A stretch of 60,141 bases of DNA from a virus: positions 1-60,141 of the IMG/VR virus record IMGVR_UViG_3300017767_000010; one strand, written 5' to 3'. This document shows positions 2,216 through 58,265 of this stretch, in pieces. The notes under the pieces were generated by a model. It did no database searches, had not been told where the DNA came from, and saw nothing but the letters and a program-made list of their open reading frames with translations. How positions within the stretch are numbered: the first letter of the stretch is position 1; every line of letters begins with the position of its first letter. A program made the translations under genes and the position numbers.

Positions 2216-3811
2216 ATGGGAGTACAATTCGGTGGGCCTAAAATAGTAAAGGCCCTTAGTTTTAAAAAAGAAGCCAAAGATGGCCTTATTAAAGGTATTA
2301 AAAAGCTATCGGATGCAGTGTCAGTAACACTTGGTGCATCTGGTAGAACAGTAGTTTTAGAAGATGACTTTGGTAATCCTCACGTAACAAAAGACGGTGT
2401 TACAGTAGCAAGCTACGTAAACCTAGAAGATCCACTGGAAAATCTAGGTGCTACTATGCTAAAGCAAGCCGCAAAACAAACAGCAACAAAAGCAGGCGAC
2501 GGAACAACAACATCTACAGTACTAGCTGAAAACATAATGAAAAGCTACTTTAATTTAAAAGGAGAAGATTTTTCATTTAGAGATATTAAAAGCGGTATAG
2601 ATAAGTTTGTAAAAAAAGTCGTAGAGTTTTTAAATAAAAAAGCATCACCGGTAGATGAAAAGATGTTAAATCATGTATCTACCATTTCTTGTAACAACGA
2701 CAAAGAACTTGGCAACTTTATAGCAGATGCGTTTAAATTAGCAGGTGAAAACGGTGTAGTAACAATGGAAACATCACCGACAAATGAAACCTATATAGAT
2801 TCAATAAACGGTACACATATAAAGTCAATAAGTAAAAGTATACATTTTTATACTAATAGGGAAAAAGAAGTGTCGGAGCTTGAGAAGCCATTAATATTTT
2901 TATGTGCTTCTGATATAGATAATATCCGACGTATTCAACCAATCTTGGAGTTCGCGATCAAGTCCAACCAATCGTTGTTACTCATTGCCCCTTGCGATCA
3001 GCAAATCATTTCAGCATTAGCGATGAATTTCGTAAAGGGCAATATACGTTGCAATGTTATCGATCCACCTTCTTTCGGACTTAAAAGAAAGGATATATTA
3101 GATGACATTGCCCTTTTAACGGGTGCAACTGTTATAGATGAAAATCTAGGTGACTCACTAGATAACATTACATCAGACGTGCTCGGTAATGCATCAAAAG
3201 CTATAATTGATACAGATGGTACAACTGTAGCTATAGATGAGATTCCAGAAGGAGTCAAAGAAAGAGTCGAGTATCTTCAAAAACAATTAGATGAAGAAGA
3301 TCATCATATAATGAGACCACATTTAGAATATAGGCTATCTATATTGAATGGAGGTGTTTCAATGGTTTATGTTGGTGGAGATACTGAAGTGGAAGTATCA
3401 GAAAAAAAAGACAGGGTTGATGATGCAATTCATGCCGTTAGAGCTGCAAAAAAAGAAGGTATACTACCCGGGGGCGGTGTAGCACTAGTAGCAGCAGCAA
3501 ATATGGATTGGGAGTTAACACTTAATCAAGGTGAACTAAAGGGTATTGATATAATGAAAGAAGCACTTTTATCACCATACAATATGATACTAAGCAATGC
3601 AGGATTAAATCCTGAAGATTTTAAAGGTATATCATTTAAAAAAGGTGTTGACGTAATGGATGCAACCGTAAAAGATATGATAAAAGCCGGTATAGTCGAT
3701 CCACTGCTTGTAACTAAATCAGCACTATTAAATGCTGTATCAGTTGCAACTACTATACTTTCAACCGATTGTGTAATTTCAAACGTTAGAGATTATGAAA
3801 GCGATAGGTAA
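2216..3811 (+). CDS. groEL: phage GroEL-type chaperonin, 531 aa
   Basis: A group I chaperonin of nearly normal length. Visible family features are the nucleotide-binding 'TLGASGRTVVLE' (residues 38-49), Asp60 in 'TKDGVTVA', the P-loop-like GDGTTT at 94-99, the 'DDAIHAVRAAKKEGILPGGG' block of the second equatorial half, and the C-terminal 'AGIVDPLLVTKSALLNAVSV' ATP-pocket block. The usual C-terminal GGM repeats are absent. It probably forms an ATP-driven folding ring for phage structural proteins. The groES-like gene overlaps its end by 17 bases. The apical-domain segment at about 2930-3095 has GC-richer codons (ATC, TTC, AAG, CGT) than the rest of the gene. Confidence 0.93.
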   Translation: MGVQFGGPKIVKALSFKKEAKDGLIKGIKKLSDAVSVTLGASGRTVVLEDDFGNPHVTKDGVTVASYVNLEDPLENLGATMLKQAAKQTATKAGDGTTTSTVLAENIMKSYFNLKGEDFSFRDIKSGIDKFVKKVVEFLNKKASPVDEKMLNHVSTISCNNDKELGNFIADAFKLAGENGVVTMETSPTNETYIDSINGTHIKSISKSIHFYTNREKEVSELEKPLIFLCASDIDNIRRIQPILEFAIKSNQSLLLIAPCDQQIISALAMNFVKGNIRCNVIDPPSFGLKRKDILDDIALLTGATVIDENLGDSLDNITSDVLGNASKAIIDTDGTTVAIDEIPEGVKERVEYLQKQLDEEDHHIMRPHLEYRLSILNGGVSMVYVGGDTEVEVSEKKDRVDDAIHAVRAAKKEGILPGGGVALVAAANMDWELTLNQGELKGIDIMKEALLSPYNMILSNAGLNPEDFKGISFKKGVDVMDATVKDMIKAGIVDPLLVTKSALLNAVSVATTILSTDCVISNVRDYESDR

Positions 3812-8718: not shown

Positions 8719-9093
8719 ATGGCATTAACAAAAGTAACACATAACGTATTAGAAAATAGATACACAGCAATCAATGCTATTGGTACTACCTCTGGTGGAT
8801 TTAATATTGACTTTTCTTTAGGGGTTGTTCATACTATAACATTAGGAGGTGCTCATACAGGCACGTTTATTAATTTTAAAGTTGGACAAGTAATTGATAT
8901 AATTATAACAGGAGATTATGCATTAACGCTTAGTGCAACTGCATCGGGTACCCCATCTATAAATAAAATTGGTTCTACTGATTATGCTGGAGCATCTACA
9001 AATGTTATACAAGTAGTTTGTACATCAGCTAGTAGCTCAACACCCCAATTTTTATATTCAGTAAATACATACGCAAGCGATACAACACCATAA
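8719..9093 (+). CDS. short beta-rich fibre protein, 124 aa
   Basis: Starts MALTKVTHNVLENRYTA, an opening I recall from phage fibre or neck proteins, then Thr/Ser/Gly-rich beta sequence 'IITGDYALTLSATASG'. Ends at TAA 9091-9093. No catalytic motif. Likely a small trimeric fibre or a carrier for the following proteins. Confidence 0.7.
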   Translation: MALTKVTHNVLENRYTAINAIGTTSGGFNIDFSLGVVHTITLGGAHTGTFINFKVGQVIDIIITGDYALTLSATASGTPSINKIGSTDYAGASTNVIQVVCTSASSSTPQFLYSVNTYASDTTP

Positions 9094-9097
9094 TAAT

Positions 9098-9595
9098 ATA
9101 AAAGCACGAATAGAATCAGGCAAAATTATAAAATATCCTACTTTACCAAATTCATTTAAAAGTGGAGGTGTAGTTGTTGAAAATTTTAGCAAAGCAAGTA
9201 ATGATGTTTTAGAATCTTATGGTTTTTATGATATAGTTATTCCAACCTATGATAGCAAAACAGAATATATACATAATTTACGTACTGTTGACGATTATAA
9301 AGATTCGGAAGGTAATACTAAAACGGTTTTTACTTATGATGTAAGTGAAAAAACTTTCACTGAATCTCTTGTTGAATTAAAAAAAATTAAAATACAACAA
9401 TTAAAATCTTTAGCTAATCAAAAATTACAACCAACAGATTGGTATATAATTAGAAAAATAGAAAAAGGATCATCTATCCCAGATAATATACAAACACAAA
9501 GAAATAACATAAAAAGTCAGGTAGATACTCAAGAAGCATCTATTAATTCTAAAACAAATAAATTAGATGTGTTTAACTTTGAAATAAATTTATAA
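9098..9595 (+). CDS. fibre-associated protein with apparent ATA start, 165 aa
   Basis: No ATG, GTG or TTG stands at the start, yet 9098-9592 is an uninterrupted, protein-like frame ending at TAA 9593-9595, directly before ATG 9596. The translation from ATA 9098 would be MKARIESGKIIKYPTLPNSF..., an opening I recall from phage proteins next to tail fibres. The context TAATAATATA differs by one base from the TAATAATATG that starts other genes here, so a start ATG appears changed to ATA. The C-terminal part is helical (VELKKIKIQQLKSLANQKL) and ends with 'NKLDVFNFEINL'. Either ATA initiates after the preceding stop, or the gene is damaged, or the base is a consensus error. Confidence 0.75.
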   Translation: MKARIESGKIIKYPTLPNSFKSGGVVVENFSKASNDVLESYGFYDIVIPTYDSKTEYIHNLRTVDDYKDSEGNTKTVFTYDVSEKTFTESLVELKKIKIQQLKSLANQKLQPTDWYIIRKIEKGSSIPDNIQTQRNNIKSQVDTQEASINSKTNKLDVFNFEINL

Positions 9596-12397
9596 ATGTC
9601 TTTAGGGAAAAAAATATTTCATCAAAATCCAGCAGCAACAGGCGATGTAGATGCAGCGCAAGGGCTAGTTATACATGTGGATGCTAATGATGAGGATAGC
9701 ATTGAAAGCGGAGGTGCTAATACAGGTGCAGGAAGTGGTACTTGGTTTGATATAGCTAACCACAATTTAAATGTACCTTTAGCGGATAAAGCAGATAATT
9801 TACAATTACATCTTAATGCAAGTGATACAACTTCCTATGGGGGTAGTGGCTCAACTTGGACAGATATAAGTGGAAATTCAAGAAACGGTACAATCAATGG
9901 TGGTGTTGAAAGCACTTATACAACAGATCTAAGAGGAAGTTTTGATTTAGTAAAAAACTCCGGAGATTATTTTGAAATTCCACATCATAATGATATTAGT
10001 CCTAGTTCAAACGGGGTAACTTTTGAATCATGGGTAACACCTGATAATATAAACACTACTAACAATATTTTTTATATTGGTAATGATTCAGGTTATGGAG
10101 AATTTTCAGGAGGTACAAATAATGCTACAGCTTTTATTACTACAATGACTTCAAGTGCTTATGTAAATAATGTAGCTACAGGTAATGTTATAACAGCTGG
10201 AAAATTACATCATATTGTTTTTACAATGAGTAATGTAACAAATCCTGTAGTTAATATATATGTTGATGGTACATTATCAGTAACAAACACAGGTTCAGGT
10301 ACAGTAATTGATACCAATGGAAATTTAAAAATAGGTAGATACACAACAGGAAATGCAAATGATTTTGATGGTAAAATACATGCAATAAGAGTTTATAATA
10401 CAGTACTTACAGCATCAGAAGTAGCACAAAACTTTAGAGCAGGTAATTTTTTAAGCTATAGTTCTTTAGTTACTTCTAAAGACCAAGCAAATCCAGGTTC
10501 ATTATATACAAGTAATTTAGCATTTCATTTAGATGCAAATGGTCATTCAGGTACATATTGGACTGATAGTGCTAGTAGTATTAATGGTACAATTAGTGGA
10601 GCAACCTATGTTAACGATAATAATTCAGATTATTTTACTTTTGATGGAAGTAATGACACTGTAACTTTTCCAGCTTCTGATACTTCACCTGTAAATTTTT
10701 CAAGTGAAACTCATACAATAGAATTTTGGGTAAATTTTAATAATTTAGCTGATGATGATGTAATAGTAGGAAAATTTGGTGGTAGCAATACTTTAAAATC
10801 TTTTCAAATACAAGTATCAAATAGTAATAAAATAACAGTATTAGAAAGAGATGGCAGCTCAAATAATACTTTTGAAACTACCGGCACATTTTCAAATGGG
10901 ACTTGGGCACATTTTACATATGTAAGGTCAGCATCTCAAGTAATATTATATATAAATGGTGCATTAGACGCTACACATTCTGCATCAAATGCTATAAATG
11001 CAGGTTCTACTCAAGACATAACAATAGGTAATCAAGCCGGTGCAAGTGTTTATTTTGATGGTAAATTAGCTCAGGTAAGAATTTATAGTTCTACTTTAAA
11101 TTCTTCACAAGTAAAAACTAATTACAATGCTACTAAAGCATTATATCAAAATCCTACTTTGCAAATGAATCTATTAGGTTCAGCATATACAAGTGGTACA
11201 ACTTGGAGTGATTCAGCTAATAGTAATGATGGCACAATATCAAACGGAAGTGCTTCTTTTGATAAAGAACTAGGTAATTTTTTAGTCTTTGACGGCAGTC
11301 CAAGATTAACTGTTCCAATGTTTTCAGCATTATCGACTGCCACCATTTTTTCTATAGAATTATGGTTTAAATCATCCACAGCAACAAGTGATGGAATGAT
11401 AATGAATGTTTATAATGGGGCTGGTACTACTGAAAGTAAATTTAGTTTAAGTTGGAACGGTAATAAATTTAGATGGGTAGTATACGGTGGTTCAAATAAT
11501 GGTTACGATGCGTCCCAGGATTTATTTACTACAAATACCTTTTCAACAAATACTTGGCTTCATGTAGTTGCAACGTATAGCTATGACTCTGAAATGAAAA
11601 TATATGTAAATGGAGTTTTAGAAGGTGCAGAAGGAGATCCTGATCACGGAGTAAGTACAAATTCAAGTACACAAATTAGATGGAGTGATAGAAGTGATGG
11701 ATATGGTGTAGATACACAAATAGGAGAAACTCGTATTTATACTGGTGTACTTACACAAGCACAAGTAGCACAAAACTATTTAGCTAAAAAGAATGATTAT
11801 CCTAATGGATTTAATTTTTCAATTAATAGCGCTACTTTTTCAACAAATTCAAGTCCAGCATACAACTATTTTCGTTCTGATGCTGCTGCTGAAAAACTTA
11901 CATCTGGTACTGTGGATATTGACATAAGTATGGGTATGACTGTTTCCGTATGGTTAAGAAGACACGCTACAACAGGGACATATCAGCAACAGTTTAGAAT
12001 GACAGGAGATGGCTTTACATCTTATTTATTTATGATTGCTGGAAATGGAGATACAAGGTATTTTTATTCCGATGGTACAGGAAATGTAATTAATACAGCA
12101 GCAGGTTTTGGAGATTGGACAACGGATTGGATAAATATAATTCACGTGAGAGAAGCAAATGGAGCAGGTACAACTAACAACAGGGGAGAAATATATTTAA
12201 ACGGAGTTTCTGGACATACACAAACTGATTTAACAGCAGCAACAAATATCACAAGCATTGGGTTTGGAAATAATTTGACTTCAAGTAGAGTTGACAATGT
12301 TGATTCCGGTATGTTAAAACTATTTCAAAGACCATTTTCTGATGCAGAAGCATTAGCTGAATTTAACGCAACAAAAGCAACGTTTGGTATATCATAA
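9596..12397 (+). CDS. LamG-like repeat adhesin/tail fibre, 933 aa
   Basis: After a short N-terminal part with 'IHVDANDEDS', there are about four concanavalin/laminin-G-like units of roughly 200 residues. Each has 'L(H/N)L...TWTD...NDGTI' near its start, 'ESWV' or 'IEFWV' or 'IELWF' in the core, 'H(I/F/V)V.T......IYVDG' and 'IG...........IRVYN..L..SEV.QN(F/Y)' at the end. Such domains bind carbohydrate. Together with the glycine-rich fibre this is probably the host-range determinant, attaching to surface polysaccharide. The copies are diverged from one another. Confidence 0.85.
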   Translation: MSLGKKIFHQNPAATGDVDAAQGLVIHVDANDEDSIESGGANTGAGSGTWFDIANHNLNVPLADKADNLQLHLNASDTTSYGGSGSTWTDISGNSRNGTINGGVESTYTTDLRGSFDLVKNSGDYFEIPHHNDISPSSNGVTFESWVTPDNINTTNNIFYIGNDSGYGEFSGGTNNATAFITTMTSSAYVNNVATGNVITAGKLHHIVFTMSNVTNPVVNIYVDGTLSVTNTGSGTVIDTNGNLKIGRYTTGNANDFDGKIHAIRVYNTVLTASEVAQNFRAGNFLSYSSLVTSKDQANPGSLYTSNLAFHLDANGHSGTYWTDSASSINGTISGATYVNDNNSDYFTFDGSNDTVTFPASDTSPVNFSSETHTIEFWVNFNNLADDDVIVGKFGGSNTLKSFQIQVSNSNKITVLERDGSSNNTFETTGTFSNGTWAHFTYVRSASQVILYINGALDATHSASNAINAGSTQDITIGNQAGASVYFDGKLAQVRIYSSTLNSSQVKTNYNATKALYQNPTLQMNLLGSAYTSGTTWSDSANSNDGTISNGSASFDKELGNFLVFDGSPRLTVPMFSALSTATIFSIELWFKSSTATSDGMIMNVYNGAGTTESKFSLSWNGNKFRWVVYGGSNNGYDASQDLFTTNTFSTNTWLHVVATYSYDSEMKIYVNGVLEGAEGDPDHGVSTNSSTQIRWSDRSDGYGVDTQIGETRIYTGVLTQAQVAQNYLAKKNDYPNGFNFSINSATFSTNSSPAYNYFRSDAAAEKLTSGTVDIDISMGMTVSVWLRRHATTGTYQQQFRMTGDGFTSYLFMIAGNGDTRYFYSDGTGNVINTAAGFGDWTTDWINIIHVREANGAGTTNNRGEIYLNGVSGHTQTDLTAATNITSIGFGNNLTSSRVDNVDSGMLKLFQRPFSDAEALAEFNATKATFGIS

Positions 12398-16868: not shown

Positions 16869-17987
16869 ATGGCAGAAGCTACAGGATATACAACTCAATT
16901 TCCCAGCCAATCGGTTGATGACGCTACAAAAAATAGCGAAAAATACGGAATGGAAGTGGCAAGAGGTATAAAAAATGAGTGGTTTAGAAAGAGTGCCGGT
17001 ACAGGTAGATTCCTTCAAAACCAACGAGAATTCCATAGACTAAAATTATATGCTAGAGGTGAACAATCAACACAAAAATATAAAGATGAATTTTCTATAA
17101 ATGGTGATTTATCTTATTTAAATCTTGATTGGAAACCCGTACCTATAATTCCAAAATTTGTTGATATAGTTGTAAATGGTATGCAAGATAGATTGTTTAC
17201 AATTAAAACATTTGCACAAGATCCTTCGTCTACAAAGAAAAGAACTGATTTTGTAGAAATGATGCAGGAGGACATGAATACAAAAGATTTTATAGAGAAT
17301 ATAGATCAACAACTAGGTATTAATGTACAAAATTTTAAAAATAAAGAAATACCTGATTCAGATGAAGAATTAGAGCTTCATATGCAGCTTAATTATAAAC
17401 AAACTATTGAGCTTGCTCATGAACAAGCTATTGATAATGTATTTAAAAGAAATAATTATTATGAACTTAAAAAACGTTTAGATTATGACCAAACTGTCTT
17501 GGGTATATCTTGCGCTAAGCATACTTTTAATAATACTGATGGTATTAAACTCGAATACGTAGATCCAGCTAATTTAGTATATTCATATACAGAAGATCCA
17601 AATTTTCAAGATGTATATTACTTTGGAGAAATAAAACAAATAAAATCTAACGAACTTAAAAAACAATTTCCTGGATTATCAGATGAAGAATTTGAAGATT
17701 GTATAAAAAAATCTGGTAAAACTAATCAATACGATTATACTAATAATGATTCTGAAGATTCATATGATTCTAATACATTAACAGTATTATATTTTAATTG
17801 GAAATCTTGGGAAAAAAGTGTTTTTAAAATAAAAGAAACATCTTCTGGCGCTAAAAAAGCAATTAAAAAAGACGATAATTTTAATCCGCCTAAAGATCAA
17901 AGAACAAGATTTGAAAGAGTAGCACAAGCAAGAGAAGTTATATATGAGGGTGTTATGGTTTTAGGTGCTAATAAACTTTTAAAATAG
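16869..17987 (+). CDS. portal protein, N-terminal part up to in-frame TAG, 372 aa
   Basis: First part of the portal (head-tail connector ring). Visible are a long helical N-terminal domain, 'RLKLYARGEQSTQKYKDEF', 'DIVVNGMQDRLFTI' and 'YDQTVLGISCAKHTFNNTDG'. It stops at TAG 17985-17987 after 'VLGANKLLK'. The downstream frame 18003-19229 is in the same phase, separated only by TAG and five codons (E K A Q N), and continues the same protein family. Read together they would give about 786 residues. My recollection of relatives is Trp at the TAG position (TGG to TAG is one base), which I cannot check here. Confidence 0.82.
   Translation: MAEATGYTTQFPSQSVDDATKNSEKYGMEVARGIKNEWFRKSAGTGRFLQNQREFHRLKLYARGEQSTQKYKDEFSINGDLSYLNLDWKPVPIIPKFVDIVVNGMQDRLFTIKTFAQDPSSTKKRTDFVEMMQEDMNTKDFIENIDQQLGINVQNFKNKEIPDSDEELELHMQLNYKQTIELAHEQAIDNVFKRNNYYELKKRLDYDQTVLGISCAKHTFNNTDGIKLEYVDPANLVYSYTEDPNFQDVYYFGEIKQIKSNELKKQFPGLSDEEFEDCIKKSGKTNQYDYTNNDSEDSYDSNTLTVLYFNWKSWEKSVFKIKETSSGAKKAIKKDDNFNPPKDQRTRFERVAQAREVIYEGVMVLGANKLLK
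17985..17987 (+). other. in-frame amber (TAG) codon interrupting the portal gene
   Basis: The portal frame started at 16869 reaches TAG at codon 373 and continues open from GAA 17988 to 19229. The downstream bases are GAAAAAGCACAAAATATGG, with ATG at 18003. Neither visible tRNA has a CTA anticodon, and TAG is used as an ordinary terminator elsewhere, including a tandem TAGTAG at the end of the primase-helicase gene. Readthrough, re-initiation, a null mutation in the sampled population, or a consensus error are all possible. Confidence 0.9.
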
Positions 17988-18002
17988 GAAAAAGCACAAA
18001 AT

Positions 18003-19229
18003 ATGGTTCGTCCTGATTCTAACGTGAATACTGTTATGATGAATTATATTGTTAGCTCACCTAGATTTTACAAAGGTAAAATTGAAAGCTTAGTTAGCAG
18101 GATGGTTACTTATGCTGATCTTATTCAACTAACACATTTAAAATTACAACAAGTAATACAAAGAATGACACCTTCCGGTGTATTTGTAGATGCAGACGGG
18201 TTATCTGAAATAGATTTAGGTAATGGTACAAATTATAATCCACAAGAAGCATTAAATTTATATTTTCAAACAGGATCTATTATTGGGCGTTCTATGACTG
18301 TGGATGGTGATATGAATCCTGGTAAAGTACCTATTCAAGAATTACCAGGTGGTGGTGGTCAACAATCTACACTTTTAATTCAATCATATAATTATTATTT
18401 AAATATGATAAGAGATGTGACCGGGTTAAATGAAGCTAGAGATGGTTCTGATCCAGATCCTCATGCTTTAGTTGGTGTACAAAAACTAGCAGCTGCTAAT
18501 TCAAACACAGCTACAAGGCATATATTAAATAGTTCTATGTATATAACAAGTGAACTTGCGGAGGCTATTTCTATAAGAATAAAAGATGTACTTACGTATC
18601 ATCCTCAAAGAGATGTGTTTATTAAAAGTTTAGGTAGATTTACTGTGGGAGCATTGAAAGAATTAGAAAATGTACATATGCATGATTTTGGTGTATTTAT
18701 TGAATTAGATCCTGATGAAGATGAAAAACAATTAGTTGAAAATAATATACAAGCTGCTTTATCAAGAGACCAAATACAACTAGAAGATGTAATAGATATT
18801 AGAGCAATTAAAAATATTAAATTAGCTAATCAACTATTAAAATTTAGAAGAGTAAAAAAAGCTACATTTGATCAAATAAAAGCAGAAAGAAATATTGCTG
18901 CTCAATCAGAAGCTAATGCAAAAGCGGCTCAGGCCGCTGAGATGGCAAAGGCACAATCTGAAAATATGAAAGTGCAAGCTAAAGTAAAACTTAGTGAAGC
19001 ACAGAAAAATTTTGATATTCAAAAACTTCAAAGTGAAGCTAGTGCTAAAAAAGAACTTATGCAATTTGAGTTTGATTTGAATATGAAATTAAAAAGAATG
19101 GAATTAGATTCAAAAGAAAAAGTAGAACTTAGTAAACCTATTAGAAGTGCAAAGCCTAATAAAGCATTTGAGTCTAAAGGTAATGACGTTCTAGGGGGGT
19201 TAGATCTTTCAAGATTTGAACCTAAATAA
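18003..19229 (+). CDS. portal protein, C-terminal part, 408 aa
   Basis: Continues the portal frame from ATG 18003, 15 bases after the internal TAG. It holds the conserved core: 'MIRDVTGLNEARDGSDPDPHALVG' (in pieces), 'KLAAANSNTATRHIL' and the C-terminal Ala/Gln/Lys-rich coiled-coil barrel, ending 'NDVLGGLDLSRFEPK'. If translation restarts here the portal would be two chains; if the TAG is suppressed it is one. The sequence is otherwise intact with no further lesions, which argues against an old pseudogene. Confidence 0.82.
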   Translation: MVRPDSNVNTVMMNYIVSSPRFYKGKIESLVSRMVTYADLIQLTHLKLQQVIQRMTPSGVFVDADGLSEIDLGNGTNYNPQEALNLYFQTGSIIGRSMTVDGDMNPGKVPIQELPGGGGQQSTLLIQSYNYYLNMIRDVTGLNEARDGSDPDPHALVGVQKLAAANSNTATRHILNSSMYITSELAEAISIRIKDVLTYHPQRDVFIKSLGRFTVGALKELENVHMHDFGVFIELDPDEDEKQLVENNIQAALSRDQIQLEDVIDIRAIKNIKLANQLLKFRRVKKATFDQIKAERNIAAQSEANAKAAQAAEMAKAQSENMKVQAKVKLSEAQKNFDIQKLQSEASAKKELMQFEFDLNMKLKRMELDSKEKVELSKPIRSAKPNKAFESKGNDVLGGLDLSRFEPK

Positions 19230-44264: not shown

Positions 44265-46007
44265 TTAACCATCGCAGCTTAAACAATTAGGATCCATAGC
44301 TGCTGCTGCTATATCTCCTCTCAATACAGACTCTGTCCTCATATAATATAAGGTCTTTATTCCATGTTTCCATGCGTCCATATGTACCGTATTAATCCAT
44401 CTAGGTGTAGCCTCAGAAGGAAAAGCTAAATTAAGTGATACTGATTGATCAATATAATCTTGTCTTATACCTGCTTGTCTAACTAATTCTAGTTGGTTTA
44501 TTTCTTTAAATGTTTTAAATACGTTTTTGACTGGCTCTCCGTCTTCTTTATTAAGTCTTCCTCTTTCGTCATAATACCATCCGTTGAGTGCATCGAGTGT
44601 TTGAATGGATCCACCATCGGCAAGTATCTTATCCCATGTATCTTTGTTATCAATCCCAAGTTTTTTAAGTATTTTTTTAAGTTCGTTATTTTTTCTAATA
44701 AATGTTCCTTTAGCAGATTGCTCTGTAAATATATTAGCAGCCCATGGTTCAATACCGGCTGAAACATTTCCTGATAGTTTTGAATTACTAACAGTTGGTG
44801 CAATAGATCTTAAGTGTGTATTTCTAAATCCTGTACCAACACACCATAAGGGTTCACCATATATTTCAGCAAGTTCTCTTGAAGCTCTTTCAGTTTCTAT
44901 TTTTATTTTTGAAAATATTTCTCGCGTTTTGAATTGTGCTAATAAACTTTCGAAAGCTATTCCTCTTTTTTGTAGCAGGCTGTGCCATCCAAGGACACCA
45001 AGTCCAAGTGCCCTGCCTTTTTCCGCACTGCGTACAGAGTTCTCGAATCCCTTCATATTCTTTGCTCTCTGAATAAATTCTTCTAGCACACCGTCCAGGA
45101 ACCATGTCGCGTCGTAAATTAAATTTGTATTCTTCCATTCATCGTATTTATCTAAATTAAGTGAAGATAAACAACAAACAAAACTATGTGATTCATCCGT
45201 ATGCAGTACAATCTCACTACATATATTAGTCATATGTACTTTTAAACTGTTTTTCTTATATGCTGCTGGATTAGCTTTGTTTGTATTTCCTTTAAACAAG
45301 ATATATGGTTCTCCAGTTGCTTTACGTTTTTGGATAAGTTTGGACCATCTAATTCTTGCTTCTTCGTCTCCAAGCTCAAGCTTTCGCATAAACTTATCGC
45401 CAACGACAGCACACTGCTGCAGGTTAAGAGATTGTCTATTGACATCTCCTTTAGGTTCTCTAATTTCCAACCATTCGAGGAAATCATCGTGTTCAATATT
45501 GATATTAACGCTTGCAGCTCCTCTTCTAACGGAACCTTGGTTGGTCGCCAATATAGTTGAGTCGTATATTTTGCAAAAAGGGACAACGCCATCTGAAGTT
45601 CCATTACCTGTAATTTTAGCACCAGCGGGACGAATCATATTAACTCCGATACCTACACCCCCGCCGTGTTTTGCAAGCAACATCATTTCTAAATTTTTAT
45701 TACCTATGTCTTGTATACTATCTGAAACATCAATTCCAAAACAACTTATAGGTAAACCTCTATCTGAACCTGTGTTAGACAATACAGGTGATGCTAAACA
45801 CAACCACCCTTTCCATATATAATCAAAAAACTTATCAGCTAGTTCTGGCTTATATAAACGCTTTGCTACTGTTTTAGCAACACGCATATATGCATCACGT
45901 GGTGATTCACCATTAATTAAATATCCACCTGATATTGTTTTCTTATATATATCTGTATCACCCCACACAGGGTAATCTTTATTTTTTTTCCAATTACTAT
46001 TCCACAT
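44265..46007 (-). CDS. nrdA: class I ribonucleotide reductase large subunit, 580 aa
   Basis: Catalyses reduction of ribonucleotides to deoxyribonucleotides. Visible: 'ASPVLSNTG' (72-80), Cys89 in 'LPISCF', the active-site set Asn261-Cys263-Glu265 in 'TNICSE', Cys278/279 in 'FVCCLSSLN', the radical-path Tyr554-Tyr555 in 'LYYMRTES', and the C-terminal redox pair Cys575/Cys578 in 'NCLSCDG'. It has no N-terminal ATP-cone, so it probably lacks dATP inhibition. Three patches (about 44520-44640, 44955-45112, 45380-45690) have GC-richer codons than the rest. nrdB lies upstream, separated by two small membrane or secreted genes. Confidence 0.93.
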   Translation of the reverse strand: MWNSNWKKNKDYPVWGDTDIYKKTISGGYLINGESPRDAYMRVAKTVAKRLYKPELADKFFDYIWKGWLCLASPVLSNTGSDRGLPISCFGIDVSDSIQDIGNKNLEMMLLAKHGGGVGIGVNMIRPAGAKITGNGTSDGVVPFCKIYDSTILATNQGSVRRGAASVNINIEHDDFLEWLEIREPKGDVNRQSLNLQQCAVVGDKFMRKLELGDEEARIRWSKLIQKRKATGEPYILFKGNTNKANPAAYKKNSLKVHMTNICSEIVLHTDESHSFVCCLSSLNLDKYDEWKNTNLIYDATWFLDGVLEEFIQRAKNMKGFENSVRSAEKGRALGLGVLGWHSLLQKRGIAFESLLAQFKTREIFSKIKIETERASRELAEIYGEPLWCVGTGFRNTHLRSIAPTVSNSKLSGNVSAGIEPWAANIFTEQSAKGTFIRKNNELKKILKKLGIDNKDTWDKILADGGSIQTLDALNGWYYDERGRLNKEDGEPVKNVFKTFKEINQLELVRQAGIRQDYIDQSVSLNLAFPSEATPRWINTVHMDAWKHGIKTLYYMRTESVLRGDIAAAAMDPNCLSCDG

Positions 46008-46356
46008 TTAAATAATATATTAAATATCCTATTGACACGTTTAAATTTACTAATACTAAGTTCCATTGTTTTGCAACCCACACTTGTGGTATAGATAGCA
46101 TACCCCCTATAATATAGGTTGTAATACCTATATTACCTTGTGCTAATAAATAGGGTGACATCATAATAAACGCTGTGCCCATATATCCTAATCTATTTGC
46201 AATTCTTTCTTTTGCTGTAAGTCTTCTATCTTGAACCAATAATCTCACGAAAGAACGCTTCCATCTAAACTCACAGCTTATACATGTTTTCTTGCCTAGA
46301 TGTTTAAACTTATGGTCTTTTTTCTTTTTCTTACAGACATTACAAACTCTCACCAA
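45997..46356 (-). CDS. zinc-ribbon membrane protein, 119 aa
   Basis: N-terminal CxxC pairs ('CNVCKKKKKDHKF' and 'CISCEFRWKR', Cys5, Cys8, Cys25, Cys28) form a probable zinc ribbon like those in HNH-type phage proteins, here without the HNH residues. Two hydrophobic stretches follow (about 57-72 and 78-112). It ends TAG TAA inside the nrdA start region. Placed between nrdB and nrdA; function unknown. Confidence 0.68.
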   Translation of the reverse strand: MVRVCNVCKKKKKDHKFKHLGKKTCISCEFRWKRSFVRLLVQDRRLTAKERIANRLGYMGTAFIMMSPYLLAQGNIGITTYIIGGMLSIPQVWVAKQWNLVLVNLNVSIGYLIYYLNVE

Positions 46357-46595
46357 TTACATCTATTAGTACGTCTATATATTATAGTTGTACTATTATT
46401 TGGATAAGTATATAATAAATTATAATCATAATTATATATAGGATTTGTAGATATAATATATAATTGGTCTTGCATAGTGTTCATATAATGAATATTATTA
46501 TTATAATCTTGGTTATAATTATAAAATAATTGATCGTTAAGTTGTGCATTGCTATAAAATCCTATAGCTAAAAATAATATTAAAATTTTTTTCAT
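46350..46595 (-). CDS. small secreted protein, 81 aa
   Basis: Signal peptide 'MKKILILFLAIGFYSNAQ' with a likely cleavage after Ala17 before Gln18, a pattern typical of Bacteroidetes exports. The mature part is Asn/Tyr-rich (YNYNQDYNNNIHYMNTM), acidic to neutral, and ends 'RRTNRCNW'. Overlaps the next gene by 7 bases. Its export during infection suggests an envelope role, but nothing more can be said. Confidence 0.65.
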   Translation of the reverse strand: MKKILILFLAIGFYSNAQLNDQLFYNYNQDYNNNIHYMNTMQDQLYIISTNPIYNYDYNLLYTYPNNSTTIIYRRTNRCNW

Positions 46596-46620
46596 AATTA
46601 ATTATTGTTTAAAAGTTTAT

Positions 46621-47589
46621 TTACCAAATATCTTCAAAGTCTTCCCCTTCATTAGCTTTCGAATAATCAGTCGGCCTAATAGAAAAGAAATCAGTATGAG
46701 TGTGCCCGCCGGTAAGATGGTAGAACCAGTCCAAACTGCTCGCTCCAACTTCGTCATATTCAAAGTACTTCCCGCTGTTTGAGTAACCGAGTTCAACAAT
46801 TTTTTCGTTAAGACGTTTCCTGATAAATTGTTTAAGGTCATATGCTTTGAGGTTTTCAATATCCCCTTGTTCAAACATTTTGTCAATATATCTTTCTTCT
46901 GCTTTAAGCATTGTTTTTGCTGCTTTAATAACGTGTTCATAACAGTCATCTTGTAATCCTTTAATTTCTTTACACATATGTCTAAATAACTGACATCCCA
47001 TTTTAGAATGCAGCGATTCATCTCTTACACTCCATTTCATTTGTTGACCAATTCCTTTTAGCAAATTACGCAACTGAAAACTATATAACACAGCGAAAGC
47101 GGAATAAAGACTAACACCCTCTGCAAATGCAGAAAACACAGCAAGAGACTTACCTATACCAACTGGATTTTTACCTGTATAACTTACAAGATTTTCAAAT
47201 CTTTCAGCAGTTGCTGGCTCGTGTAAAAATGCTTCAAAGTTTTCAAGCCCTAGCGTTTCATTTAAATAAGAATAAGCAACAGCATGAATTGTTTCTTGTG
47301 AACCAAACATCATTGCCATTTGTTGTATTTCATGTTTAGGAAACCAACCTACAACCTTCTGTGTCCAATAATCTGATACCGCACATTCTGTTTGTGCAAA
47401 TCCTAAAAGTATGTTGCCAACTAAATTTTTTTCTGATTTAGTTAATTTTTCATTCCAGTCTTTAACATCGCTTGACATTGGTATTTCAGTATGTAACCAA
47501 AAAGCTTGTGCTTGTTTTAGCCAACCTTCTGTATAATATTCAGGATATTCAAAAGGTTTATAAGGTATTCTTTCGTCAAATAATCCCAT
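46621..47589 (-). CDS. nrdB: class I ribonucleotide reductase small subunit, 322 aa
   Basis: Di-iron radical subunit. Ligands: Glu68 (in 'FAQTECAVSDYW'), Glu99 and His102 in 'QETIHAVAY', Glu157 in 'AFAEGV', Glu191 and His194 in 'RDESLH'. Tyr106 is seven residues after Glu99, as the radical tyrosine is in E. coli (Glu115/Tyr122), so a tyrosyl radical is expected. The C-terminal region around 'SSLDWFYHLTGGHTHTDFF' and the end 'GEDFEDIW' should dock NrdA. Codons at about 46640-46820 are GC-richer. Starts one base from the upstream gene stop. Confidence 0.93.
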   Translation of the reverse strand: MGLFDERIPYKPFEYPEYYTEGWLKQAQAFWLHTEIPMSSDVKDWNEKLTKSEKNLVGNILLGFAQTECAVSDYWTQKVVGWFPKHEIQQMAMMFGSQETIHAVAYSYLNETLGLENFEAFLHEPATAERFENLVSYTGKNPVGIGKSLAVFSAFAEGVSLYSAFAVLYSFQLRNLLKGIGQQMKWSVRDESLHSKMGCQLFRHMCKEIKGLQDDCYEHVIKAAKTMLKAEERYIDKMFEQGDIENLKAYDLKQFIRKRLNEKIVELGYSNSGKYFEYDEVGASSLDWFYHLTGGHTHTDFFSIRPTDYSKANEGEDFEDIW

Positions 47590-47795
47590 TACTTTTTTTC
47601 TTCTTTTTCAGGTTCTTTTGTATTTTCTTTCTTAAGTTCTTCAAGAGCTTCAGCATAACCAGGTAATTTTTTTGTAAGCATCATTGTACCTACAGATAAA
47701 TCTTTTAAGTTATGTAACTCTTGTACTATCCTATTCATAGAGTTGCCTAGCACTTCTATTTTATTACGCATTTCTATTAGCTTAGCTTCCTTCAT
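47589..47795 (-). CDS. small helical phage protein, 68 aa
   Basis: 68 residues: a helical N-terminal part 'LIEMRNKIEVLGNSMNRIVQ', then 'HLKDLSVGTMMLTKKLPGY' and a Lys/Glu tail 'KKENTKEPEKEEKK'. I recall the 'LRDLxVGT...PGY' pattern from small proteins upstream of RNR in marine phages. Its stop overlaps nrdB's ATG, so it is translated with nrdB. Role unknown. Confidence 0.72.
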   Translation of the reverse strand: MKEAKLIEMRNKIEVLGNSMNRIVQELHNLKDLSVGTMMLTKKLPGYAEALEELKKENTKEPEKEEKK

Positions 47796-48003
47796 TTTTT
47801 AAAAAATAATTTGTTAAAGTATTTATTCTATCATCTGCATCAACTAACATTTGTAATGCTTGCTCTGCGTTTTTATAATAATCATCAGTTGAATGATCAC
47901 CTATACCTGCAGCTTTATTGCTTAACAAATCTAAACTAAGCATTGCTTTTGCTTTATCTGCTTCAGCAGATTTTAATAACATTTCATATAATTGTTTGTA
48001 CAT
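47782..48003 (-). CDS. small helical phage protein, 73 aa
   Basis: 73 residues with 'KAKAMLSLDLLSNKAAGIGD' followed by 'HSTDDYYKNAEQAL' and 'LVDADDRINTL'. The 'GIGDHST' loop is a feature I know from a small conserved phage protein of unknown function near nrd genes. It overlaps both neighbours by 14-20 bases. Confidence 0.72.
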   Translation of the reverse strand: MYKQLYEMLLKSAEADKAKAMLSLDLLSNKAAGIGDHSTDDYYKNAEQALQMLVDADDRINTLTNYFLKNEGS

Positions 48004-48199
48004 CTTTACTAAGTATTATAGGGCTTGCGTCCTTATTGTTTTTAACTTCAATATGTGTTTCTTTAATAGTAATAATTGGATCAATAGTTTCAATTACTCT
48101 TCTAGTTATATTACCGTGTTGATCTCTTATTACTTTCTTTTTAGAAAAAGTTTTTTTGTATTTTTTTAAAACGTATTCTTTTAGCTTTTCTTTATTCAT
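47984..48199 (-). CDS. hypothetical protein, 71 aa
   Basis: 71 residues. Basic N terminus 'KLKEYVLKKYKKTFSKKK', then a beta-rich part 'RVIETIDPIITIKETHIEVK'. No family recognised. Overlaps the following gene by 20 bases and the preceding short gene by 8. Confidence 0.65.
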   Translation of the reverse strand: MNKEKLKEYVLKKYKKTFSKKKVIRDQHGNITRRVIETIDPIITIKETHIEVKNNKDASPIILSKDVQTII

Positions 48200-48335
48200 A
48201 ATGTATTGTTAAACATATTTCTACAAAAGGTACATATAATACATGTTCTATAAATGTTTCCTCAGGATAACTTCGTATACCTACTAAGACGCCTGGATAT
48301 AATCCTAAACTAATTTCCCAACCTGCTATTTTCAT
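48192..48335 (-). CDS. tiny conserved-looking protein, 47 aa
   Basis: ATG at 48333-48335 to TAA at 48192-48194 encodes 47 residues opening 'MKIAGWEISLGLYPGVLVG' and ending 'CLTIHYE'. The pattern 'GWEIxLGxYPGxLxGxR' followed by 'HVLYVPFVE' is one I recall from small phage proteins. Eight-base overlap with the next gene supports translation. Confidence 0.7.
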   Translation of the reverse strand: MKIAGWEISLGLYPGVLVGIRSYPEETFIEHVLYVPFVEICLTIHYE

Positions 48336-48435
48336 TAAAATAATAATTTAACATTTTCATATGAAACTTTATTCTTTCGATATAATGATGTCGAAGTGAA
48401 GGTATTTCTGTGTCTTTAAATTCCGTGTTGTTCAT
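48310..48435 (-). CDS. tiny protein, 41 aa
   Basis: ATG at 48433-48435 to TAG at 48310-48312 gives 41 residues ('MNNTEFKDTEIPSLRHHYIE' then 'RIKFHMKMLNYYFNENSR'). Overlaps both neighbours by about 20-26 bases. Sequence has helical, non-random character. Function unknown. Confidence 0.6.
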   Translation of the reverse strand: MNNTEFKDTEIPSLRHHYIERIKFHMKMLNYYFNENSRLGN

Positions 48436-48634
48436 GTATCTTTAATATATCTTTATACTTTATAGGATTTCTTTTTATTAATTTTTTAATTTCCTTATCT
48501 ATCTTTCTTCGTCTATACATTATCTCTGCCTCTTTCTTCTTCTTGATTCTTTGATCAAATTTATCGTCAGATCTACTTCTTTCTGATTTTGAGGCTTGTA
48601 AAGTATCTTTCCAATATTGTTTTTCGTGAGCCAT
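48416..48634 (-). CDS. basic helical protein, 72 aa
   Basis: 72 residues, about one third Lys/Arg, almost entirely helical. It overlaps the preceding endonuclease gene by 115 bases in another frame, unusually long for this genome. A later start at Met39 ('MYRRRKIDKEIKK') would shorten the overlap to none; the upstream part 'HEKQYWKDTLQASKSE' looks protein-like, so I keep the longer form with reduced confidence. Confidence 0.55.
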   Translation of the reverse strand: MAHEKQYWKDTLQASKSERSRSDDKFDQRIKKKKEAEIMYRRRKIDKEIKKLIKRNPIKYKDILKIHEQHGI

Positions 48635-48981
48635 AATTTAAAAAGTTTCCATCTTAATGGGAAAGATTCATTTGGTCTGCCTTTGCATTCTATAATATAA
48701 TCTTTACCAATAAAATCTGGTGTATATTTTATACCTAATATTTTTTTAATTCCTCTATTTATATATTCGCCTTTACCATTAGCTTGTTTTTCATAACTTG
48801 TATTAGGAAATTCAAATGTATTTATTAATTGAAAAGTTTCATTTTCATATCCTTCAAACAATTTATTTTTTTTTAAAGCTATATAAGTGTATCTTTCAAG
48901 ACCCGAAGCAAAATTAATACCATCATATGATATTTTTTTAGCCTGTACAGGGCCTCGCTTTTTACTTTTACGTCTTCTCAT
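48520..48981 (-). CDS. PD-(D/E)xK endonuclease, 153 aa
   Basis: Residues about 20-30 'NFASGLERYTYIALKKN' supply a conserved Glu; 'ILGIKYTPDFIGKDYIIECKG' gives the Asp (YTPDF) and the ExK pair (IECKG) of a PD-(D/E)xK nuclease, followed by 'RPNESFPLRWKLFKLWL'. This is the layout of phage resolvase/VSR-like endonucleases (similar role to T7 endonuclease I). N terminus MRRRKSKKRG is basic. It likely resolves branches before packaging. Confidence 0.8.
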   Translation of the reverse strand: MRRRKSKKRGPVQAKKISYDGINFASGLERYTYIALKKNKLFEGYENETFQLINTFEFPNTSYEKQANGKGEYINRGIKKILGIKYTPDFIGKDYIIECKGRPNESFPLRWKLFKLWLTKNNIGKILYKPQNQKEVDLTINLIKESRRRKRQR

Positions 48982-48982
48982 G

Positions 48983-49258
48983 CTAATATGTAATATCCCA
49001 ATCTTTACCTGTGTTATCTGATGTCCAACTAGATTCAGGATATTTAGTTAGCTTTTTGTTTTCTTCAAATAATACAGCTCTAGCTTTTTCAATATAATTA
49101 GCAGCATCCATAAGCTCTTCTTGTAAATGATTAAGCCAAGCGTCTAATGGTTGATCATCTTTATCTAAACCTACACCATATTTTTTGTAACCTGCTTCAG
49201 CACGTTTTTGAATCTTTTCAATTACGCGATTAATTATTTTGTCGTTTATCTTACTCAT
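48983..49258 (-). CDS. MazG-like protein, 91 aa
   Basis: 91 residues with 'GYKKYGVGLDKDDQPLDAWL' and 'HLQEELMDAANYIEKAR', the helix-forming EE/D pattern of small MazG-superfamily phage proteins (dNTP pyrophosphohydrolase-like). Catalytic-type residues would be Glu47, Glu48 and Asp51. Only half of a typical four-helix unit, so it probably works as a dimer or tetramer. It overlaps the GIY-YIG-MazG gene by 8 bases. Confidence 0.72.
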   Translation of the reverse strand: MSKINDKIINRVIEKIQKRAEAGYKKYGVGLDKDDQPLDAWLNHLQEELMDAANYIEKARAVLFEENKKLTKYPESSWTSDNTGKDWDITY

Positions 49259-50009
49259 CTTTTACAAATGTTCCGTTAACCATTTTACCTGTTCGTTTTG
49301 AAATAACATTAAATGAAGAATCAATACAATCTTCAATTTTAAATCCTTCAAGCTCTGAAAGATTTGCAAGCACTATTACCATATCACCAATAGCATCTTG
49401 TATTTCATCTTTATCTTGTTTTAATAATGCTTGAGCAAGCTCACCTGCTTCTTCCATTAATTTAACATACTGTGTTTTACTATCACCTTTTTGATAAAGG
49501 TTACGTTGTTTAGCCCAGCTTCTTATTTTATTAAAAGATGAATCATTATTAGAAAATGCTTCTATAAAAGCTTTATTATATATGTAGCATGTACCTGGCC
49601 CAAATTGGCTAGCATGTACATTAGCTAATATCCAATCTATATATTCTTGTTTGTTTAATTCAAATGTATCTTCAGCAAATTTTAATACTATATTTCTTAA
49701 AAATTCAGCATTAATATCACTAGGCGATATTTTAAATGTTGTTGTTGCTTGTGATGAGCTATGTTTATTCATTTTTTTAGTAAATAAATCTTTATATAAT
49801 TTAATATCTTTTTTATATTTAAGTTCTTCTTGCAAAGTTCTTTCAGCTTCTGAAGCCTCTACTATATCATCTGTTTCATATAGTATATCGTATTCACCAG
49901 GTTTATAACCTTGTTCTTTTTCTACACGTTTTTTAATATTAGTTGTACAACCAATCTTAACTCCAGGTATATGGTATATTTTGTACTTACCGCTTTTTAG
50001 TTCTATCAT
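49251..50009 (-). CDS. GIY-YIG domain fused to MazG-type pyrophosphohydrolase, 252 aa
   Basis: Residues 9-65 fit a GIY-YIG nuclease: 'YKIYHIPGVKIG' for GIY...YIG, Arg28 in 'NIKKRVEKEQGY', and Glu56 in 'EASEAERTLQEEL' as possible metal ligand. Residues 165-230 fit MazG: 'WAKQRNLYQKGDSKTQYVKL', then 'MEEAGELAQALLK' (Glu186, Glu187, Glu190) and 'DEIQDAIGDMVIV' (Glu202, Asp205, Asp209). A helical middle part links them. It could couple DNA cleavage or damage sensing with clean-up of non-canonical or alarmone nucleotides. Placed between thyA and another MazG-like gene. Confidence 0.75.
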   Translation of the reverse strand: MIELKSGKYKIYHIPGVKIGCTTNIKKRVEKEQGYKPGEYDILYETDDIVEASEAERTLQEELKYKKDIKLYKDLFTKKMNKHSSSQATTTFKISPSDINAEFLRNIVLKFAEDTFELNKQEYIDWILANVHASQFGPGTCYIYNKAFIEAFSNNDSSFNKIRSWAKQRNLYQKGDSKTQYVKLMEEAGELAQALLKQDKDEIQDAIGDMVIVLANLSELEGFKIEDCIDSSFNVISKRTGKMVNGTFVKDE

Positions 50010-50830
50010 GTATTTAATTTTGCTTTAATTGGTGGGTGTGGATTATAATTTTTTATTTTAATCATATCTGATGTAGGTATCACTATAAACTCACGTGGTC
50101 CTTGTTCAACAGTAAGTCCGAGAGAAATATCAACATTAGGTAGTTTCCTAAAATCATTATTAAGTTGTTGTTTAGCTTGCTCGATATGGTTGCTATACAA
50201 ATGACAATCACCAAGGGAAGCAATAAGCTGACCTTCTTTATAGCCATTCCCTTTAGCAAGTAACTTAAGTAATAAACCATACATTGCAATATCATAAGGC
50301 AACCCAAGGAAAACATCAACTGATCGTTGTTGCCACATAAGATTAATTTTTCCATCATTTATATATATTTGAAAACCATAGTGGCAAGGAGGTAACACCA
50401 TATCATCCATATCATTGGGATTCCATAAGCTTGCCATAATGCGCCGCGAGCTTGGCTCTTCTTTAATTTGGATGAGTATTCGTTTAAGCTGATCAATACC
50501 ATTAAAGTCCCTAAGCTGCTTGCCGTAAATAGGACCAAGCGTGCCGTCAGTTCTACCTGATCTATTATAATCAGCATCCCAGTAACTAACACCATTAGAC
50601 TGAAGGTAATGAATATCAGTACGACCTTGTAATATCCATAATAGTTCCGTAACTGCATGTTTAAAATATATTTTTTTAGTTGTTAATAATGGAAAGCCAA
50701 GTGACATATCGTGCTTTATTGTTCTACCAAATACAGATTTAGTACCTGTACCTGTTCGATCTTCTTTTGCTTTGCCACTATATAATACACCAGCTAATAA
50801 GCCTCTATATTCATCTTGTATGTTTATCAT
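50006..50830 (-). CDS. thyA: thymidylate synthase (ThyA type), 274 aa
   Basis: Makes dTMP from dUMP with methylene-tetrahydrofolate. I chose ATG at 50830 (MINIQDEYRGLL), which overlaps the upstream gene by 20 bases; an earlier in-frame ATG adds 19 residues inside that gene. Catalytic Cys149 is in 'LPPCHYGFQ'; 'EDRTGTGT' (23-30), 'SSRRIMASLWNP' (127-138) and 'QQRSVDVFLGLPYD' (167-180) form the dUMP/phosphate site. The end 'KIKNYNPHPPIKAKL' is normal. Codons at about 50440-50545 are GC-richer. Confidence 0.94.
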   Translation of the reverse strand: MINIQDEYRGLLAGVLYSGKAKEDRTGTGTKSVFGRTIKHDMSLGFPLLTTKKIYFKHAVTELLWILQGRTDIHYLQSNGVSYWDADYNRSGRTDGTLGPIYGKQLRDFNGIDQLKRILIQIKEEPSSRRIMASLWNPNDMDDMVLPPCHYGFQIYINDGKINLMWQQRSVDVFLGLPYDIAMYGLLLKLLAKGNGYKEGQLIASLGDCHLYSNHIEQAKQQLNNDFRKLPNVDISLGLTVEQGPREFIVIPTSDMIKIKNYNPHPPIKAKLNT

Positions 50831-51098
50831 AATAGTATTTACACATTTTATAATATTCAGGCCATATAGTATGTTTATCATAAACACTTGGTGAAAAACT
50901 TATAGTCTCGCCTTTCTTATATAAACCAAAAGCAATTGCTATTTTCCATTTACCAGGTTCTTGATGTATACCATAAGGTGATATTCTTATATTATTATCA
51001 ACACAATGTTTTTGCCATGTTTCTTCTTCTATACTAGTTGAGTAGGACGGCATTTTATATGCATTCTTTTTTCCTCTGCCTACTAATCCACTTCCCAT
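50811..51098 (-). CDS. hypothetical phage protein, 95 aa
   Basis: 95 residues with 'MPSYSTSIEEETWQKHCVDN' and 'YGIHQEPGKWKIAIAFG', then Tyr/Lys-rich end. The 'EPGKW.I.I..G......SP..Y' pattern looks like a small conserved phage protein, but I cannot name it. Overlaps the primase-helicase end by 16 bases and the thyA start by 20. Confidence 0.68.
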   Translation of the reverse strand: MGSGLVGRGKKNAYKMPSYSTSIEEETWQKHCVDNNIRISPYGIHQEPGKWKIAIAFGLYKKGETISFSPSVYDKHTIWPEYYKMCKYYYDKHTR

Positions 51099-58191: not shown

Positions 58192-58265
58192 GTGCGCGGG
58201 GTGGACTCGAACCACCGACCTCGAGCTTATGAGGCTCGCGAGCTGACCATCTGCTCTACCGCGCA
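58192..58265 (-). tRNA. tRNA with CAT anticodon (Met or Ile2)
   Basis: Acceptor TGCGCGG/CCGCGCA, D stem GAGC/GCTC, anticodon stem CGAGC/GCTCG with loop CTCATAA (anticodon CAT), T arm GGTGG-TTCGAGT-CCACC. All stems pair. The anticodon stem lacks the three G-C pairs of initiator tRNA, so it is elongator Met or a lysidine-modified Ile2 type; the sequence cannot decide. The discriminator reads C, which is unusual. Confidence 0.92.

Follow-up and report, generated by a model that had tools for sequence, protein, structure and literature searches.

We found that a gene of the tail-fibre assembly chaperone type, in an IMG/VR virus record of 60,141 bases (the whole stretch is called the window hereafter), begins with ATA at the codon where its relatives carry ATG. 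The gene itself is ordinary and of a known kind, and the replacement of its ATG by ATA is private to this record. The ATA is likely to be a stray substitution, either a consensus error or a sign of a defective genome.

The 9098–9595 frame and its relatives

The frame (9098..9595, plus strand) comprises 165 codons, from ATA at 9098–9100 to TAA at 9593–9595, and is already open from 9065. The first-pass annotation had described a protein-like frame of this length that fills the space between two genes and lacks any ATG, GTG or TTG start. We confirmed the gap, which extends from the end of the upstream gene (8719..9093, plus strand, 124 aa), whose stop lies 4 nt before the ATA, to the start of the downstream gene at 9596. 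The lack of a usable start also holds in practice, as the first such codon in the frame is a GTG at 9569, nine codons before its end.

We observed relatives of the frame at 30–96% identity in many viral contigs, with a similar type of neighbour, and dN/dS values of 0.20–0.37, indicative of purifying selection. A frame that is found in many contigs beside the same type of neighbour and that is under purifying selection is not a product of chance. Therefore, judged by these comparisons, the frame is a real gene.

The ancestral start codon

The nearest relative (L002/L111, on contig 3300017756_000079), which is 96% identical at the amino acid level, has ATG at the codon homologous to 9098, and the 60-base leader preceding the start is letter-for-letter identical in this relative and in the window. 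We compared the start codons of 82 relatives, comprising 76 of the 80 loci from an alignment-based search and six from the first search; several of these 82 loci are near-duplicates, and the number is not that of independent lineages. L177, L179, L182 and L184 were left out of this comparison. ATG was present at the start in all the relatives matched from residue 1 (71/71), and in the remaining 11, matched from a later residue, the start codon was at the homologous position or at most two codons from it. ATA was conserved at the start in none of the 82, and an exact-pattern search found no second record with the same allele or with ATA.

The earlier proposal of a start at codon 9098, altered from G to A at its third base (9100), is borne out by the ATG in the nearest relative and in these 71 relatives. 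The alignment of homologues was sought as a possible refutation, through an internal start; it revealed none, and the start mapped exactly to 9098. From the alignments, the present ATA occupies the place of the ancestral start, from which it differs by a single G-to-A base change at 9100. As the window gene differs from that of the nearest relative at only 11 nucleotides, the change from ATG to ATA is recent.

Resemblance to tail-fibre assembly chaperones

All 36 members of the family alignment matched phrog_27919, and 33 of them matched phrog_4912, 'tail fiber assembly' (best E=3.8e-8). The window protein itself matched phrog_4912 with E=0.0022 over residues 94–139 only, its N-terminal beta part lying outside the match. 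Matches to the Pfam family PF16778 (Phage_tail_APC) were weak and confined to three of the 36 members (E=0.0035 at best). In the AlphaFold2 model (pLDDT 93.2, pTM 0.63), a beta part at the N-terminus is followed by two long C-terminal helices, and some of the neighbours of the model in a viral structure library carry the names phage tail assembly chaperone or DUF4376. A PDB fold search with the model gave no match at E<=0.001, and only generic matches of the helical part with Z below 8. Solved structures searched by sequence yielded no match to the chaperone-type protein, and tblastn against annotated phage genomes yielded one weak match only. With chaperones of the phrog_4912, PF16778 and DUF4376 types, the window protein shares a conserved C-terminal TDWYxxRKxExGxxIP segment, the two long C-terminal helices and a fibre-gene neighbour, whereas it differs from the phrog_4912 and PF16778 types in its uncovered N-terminal beta part and in having no significant match among solved structures.

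At all 25 loci examined, the next ORF starts within −4 to +16 nt of the chaperone-type gene, and in all ten loci tested this following ORF has Laminin_G_3 or DUF7483 domains. In the window, it is a fibre-like gene of 933 aa with repeated Laminin_G_3 domains (9596..12397, plus strand), which is the probable client of the chaperone-type protein. The original description of the frame as fibre-associated is therefore supported by synteny, with a fibre-like gene of lectin-like or DUF7483 type directly 3′, as well as by the family matches. On the basis of family and position, the 9098–9595 product looks like a chaperone.

A known example of such a protein is gp27 of the Alteromonas phage V22, an intermolecular fibre chaperone with DUF4376-bearing homologues (PMC7289586). 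What the two share is small size and a coding position beside the receptor-binding fibre gene in a marine phage (PMC7289586). However, gp27 is encoded downstream of its fibre, whereas the window gene is upstream; the parallel is a functional one, with a putative role on the side of the window protein.

The terminase of the window is 46% identical to those of the Flavobacterium elemo phages and 60% identical to that of one unclassified Caudoviricetes record. These identities make a flavobacterial host probable, and the 9098–9595 gene would be one for a tail-fibre assembly chaperone in a flavobacterial phage of the elemo-like kind.

A second private G-to-A change and the quality of the record

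The portal gene (16869..19229, plus strand) is interrupted by a TAG at 17985–17987, which is also a private G-to-A change. The first-pass annotation had read this TAG as a former TGG and the ATA as a second G-to-A difference, and the comparison agrees: the residue at this site is W in 81/81 relatives, and the codon is TGG in 80 of them. The remaining codon readout, CAA, contradicts its own W and is probably due to a strand or coordinate slip. Since the portal is under purifying selection (dN/dS against relatives of 0.10–0.15 overall and 0.08–0.23 by half), its TAG is recent or an error. We considered TAG recoding or amber suppression and rejected it; TAG terminates several genes of the window, in part at stops shared with relatives, and no suppressor tRNA was found, tRNA-Gly(tcc) and tRNA-Met(cat) being the only tRNAs detected. 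The portal gene is, moreover, locally divergent, differing by about 10% from the relative G001 as against 0–3% in several flanking structural genes, a pattern that suggests recombination of this segment.

Among the window genes with aligned relatives, we detected no further frameshift, lost start or nonsense codon (stretches without close relatives fall outside this survey). Judged by these genes, the record is generally clean, a point against a stray change, and low overall quality was rejected as an explanation. Related records had 14 in-frame stops among 201,599 aligned codons. One gene accounted for 11 of these, all at two or three codons from its end, and another had two near its start; the clear premature stop interrupts the L084 portal gene at around codon 628 of the protein as aligned. 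L143 (378–833), a member of the same chaperone-like family, has an in-frame TAA at codon 89. These sporadic premature stops in the portal of L084 and in L143 count in favour of a stray change in the window. Start-codon loss was seen neither in about 425 core-gene starts of related records nor in the 82 relatives of the chaperone-type gene, so the ATA is not a common record error, and this too speaks against a stray change; the non-ATG codons in the base-rate scan were anchoring shifts, nearly all of them lying one or two codons from an ATG.

Record-private G>A and C>T changes stood at 11:3, compared with 31:23 in relatives (Fisher p=0.22), and the ratio of nonsynonymous plus stop to synonymous changes among G>A was 10:1 in the record versus 18:13 (Fisher p=0.07). 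Hypermutation of the record from G to A was rejected, as neither excess is significant.

Other genes of the window

The tRNA-Met(cat) gene (58192–58265, minus strand) is near that of tRNA-Gly(tcc) and has an initiator-like D-stem (A11:U24, read by eye). It also occurs in the relative G007, and an initiator, an elongator or an AUA-reading Ile type are all possible. A full-length GroEL-like chaperonin gene is located at 2216–3811 (phrog_5725, E=3.6e-131); four related records, some or all of them fragments, gave no match to it. The region 44265–50887 (minus strand) seems to carry nucleotide-metabolism genes, whose translations look, by eye, like the large and small subunits of ribonucleotide reductase and a thymidylate synthase.

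Origin of the ATA

We favour a stray change because the substitution is private to the record and recent, because relatives have ATG, and because the portal gene of this record likewise has a private nonsense change from G to A. The gene would normally begin at ATG, just past the upstream stop and just before the fibre gene that it probably serves, and one private G-to-A substitution would have turned this ATG into ATA. We infer that this very recent change is either a consensus or assembly error or an unfixed mutation of the sampled genome, which would lower or abolish expression. Adoption of ATA as an alternative start is unlikely.

The translation context bears on this question from both sides. 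Bacteroidetes initiate without Shine–Dalgarno sequences, prefer an A at −3 and avoid further AUGs close to the start codon (PMC6847099), and their start choice seems to lean on AUG itself together with A at −3 (PMC6847099). The loss of AUG should therefore be costly here. The leader of the window gene has A at −3 and at −6 and little structure, and no ATG is present within about 20 nt of the ATA; A was found at −3 in 38 of the 40 sequences counted, window included. In S. aureus, infC, ccpN and citZ use AUA starts, that of citZ being lineage-specific (PMC13009471), and in reporters the AUA of ccpN and of citZ reached about 10–30% of AUG expression (PMC13009471). These working starts, and the good context of the window ATA near the upstream stop, count against a stray error, and the remainder of the 9098–9595 frame is intact. 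There is a small chance that the ATA is real and acts as a weak start, where the initiator tRNA would mispair with AUA in a translation-coupled context and supply a reduced but sufficient amount of chaperone. The likeness to S. aureus lies in an AUA where AUG is expected, lineage-specific as in citZ; however, the S. aureus starts are supported by ribosome profiling or reporters (PMC13009471), whereas the window ATA is known from sequence. Furthermore, S. aureus is a Shine–Dalgarno-using host, while the probable host group of the window initiates without this element and seems reliant on AUG. A weak start is also at odds with the conservation of ATA in no relative, and it leaves the portal TAG of the same record unexplained.

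It is improbable that the ATA is real, the gene silent and its loss tolerated, as would be the case if the fibre folded unaided or another protein served. Such tolerance would fit the broken L143 in another record and the mosaic, fast-changing nature of fibre regions, but the gene is conserved under purifying selection across the family, with complete open frames obtained from 35 relatives. In addition, the start of the fibre gene touches the stop of the chaperone-type gene, and fibre expression could also drop.

We regard as highly improbable a genuine AUA initiation without Shine–Dalgarno that is aided by the phage tRNA-Met(cat), in which the near-cognate start would set the dosage of the chaperone. 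It is barely credible that the ATA is irrelevant because the frame is translated as a frameshift fusion to the upstream gene or from a different start within it: over the 11 codons before the ATA the frame is open and overlaps the upstream gene's end, but many relatives have an in-frame stop a few codons before their ATG, so the fusion is not conserved, and no ATG, GTG or TTG precedes 9569.

Implications

The annotation of the record can be corrected: it includes a fibre-chaperone gene with a start known from homologues, which a gene caller that accepts ATG, GTG and TTG only would overlook. Because two of its private G-to-A differences are disruptive, the record calls for caution in any use of its protein set. 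If the ATA were shown to work, it would allow near-cognate initiation to be tested cleanly in Bacteroidetes, a group whose start signal is believed to reside in good part in the AUG itself.
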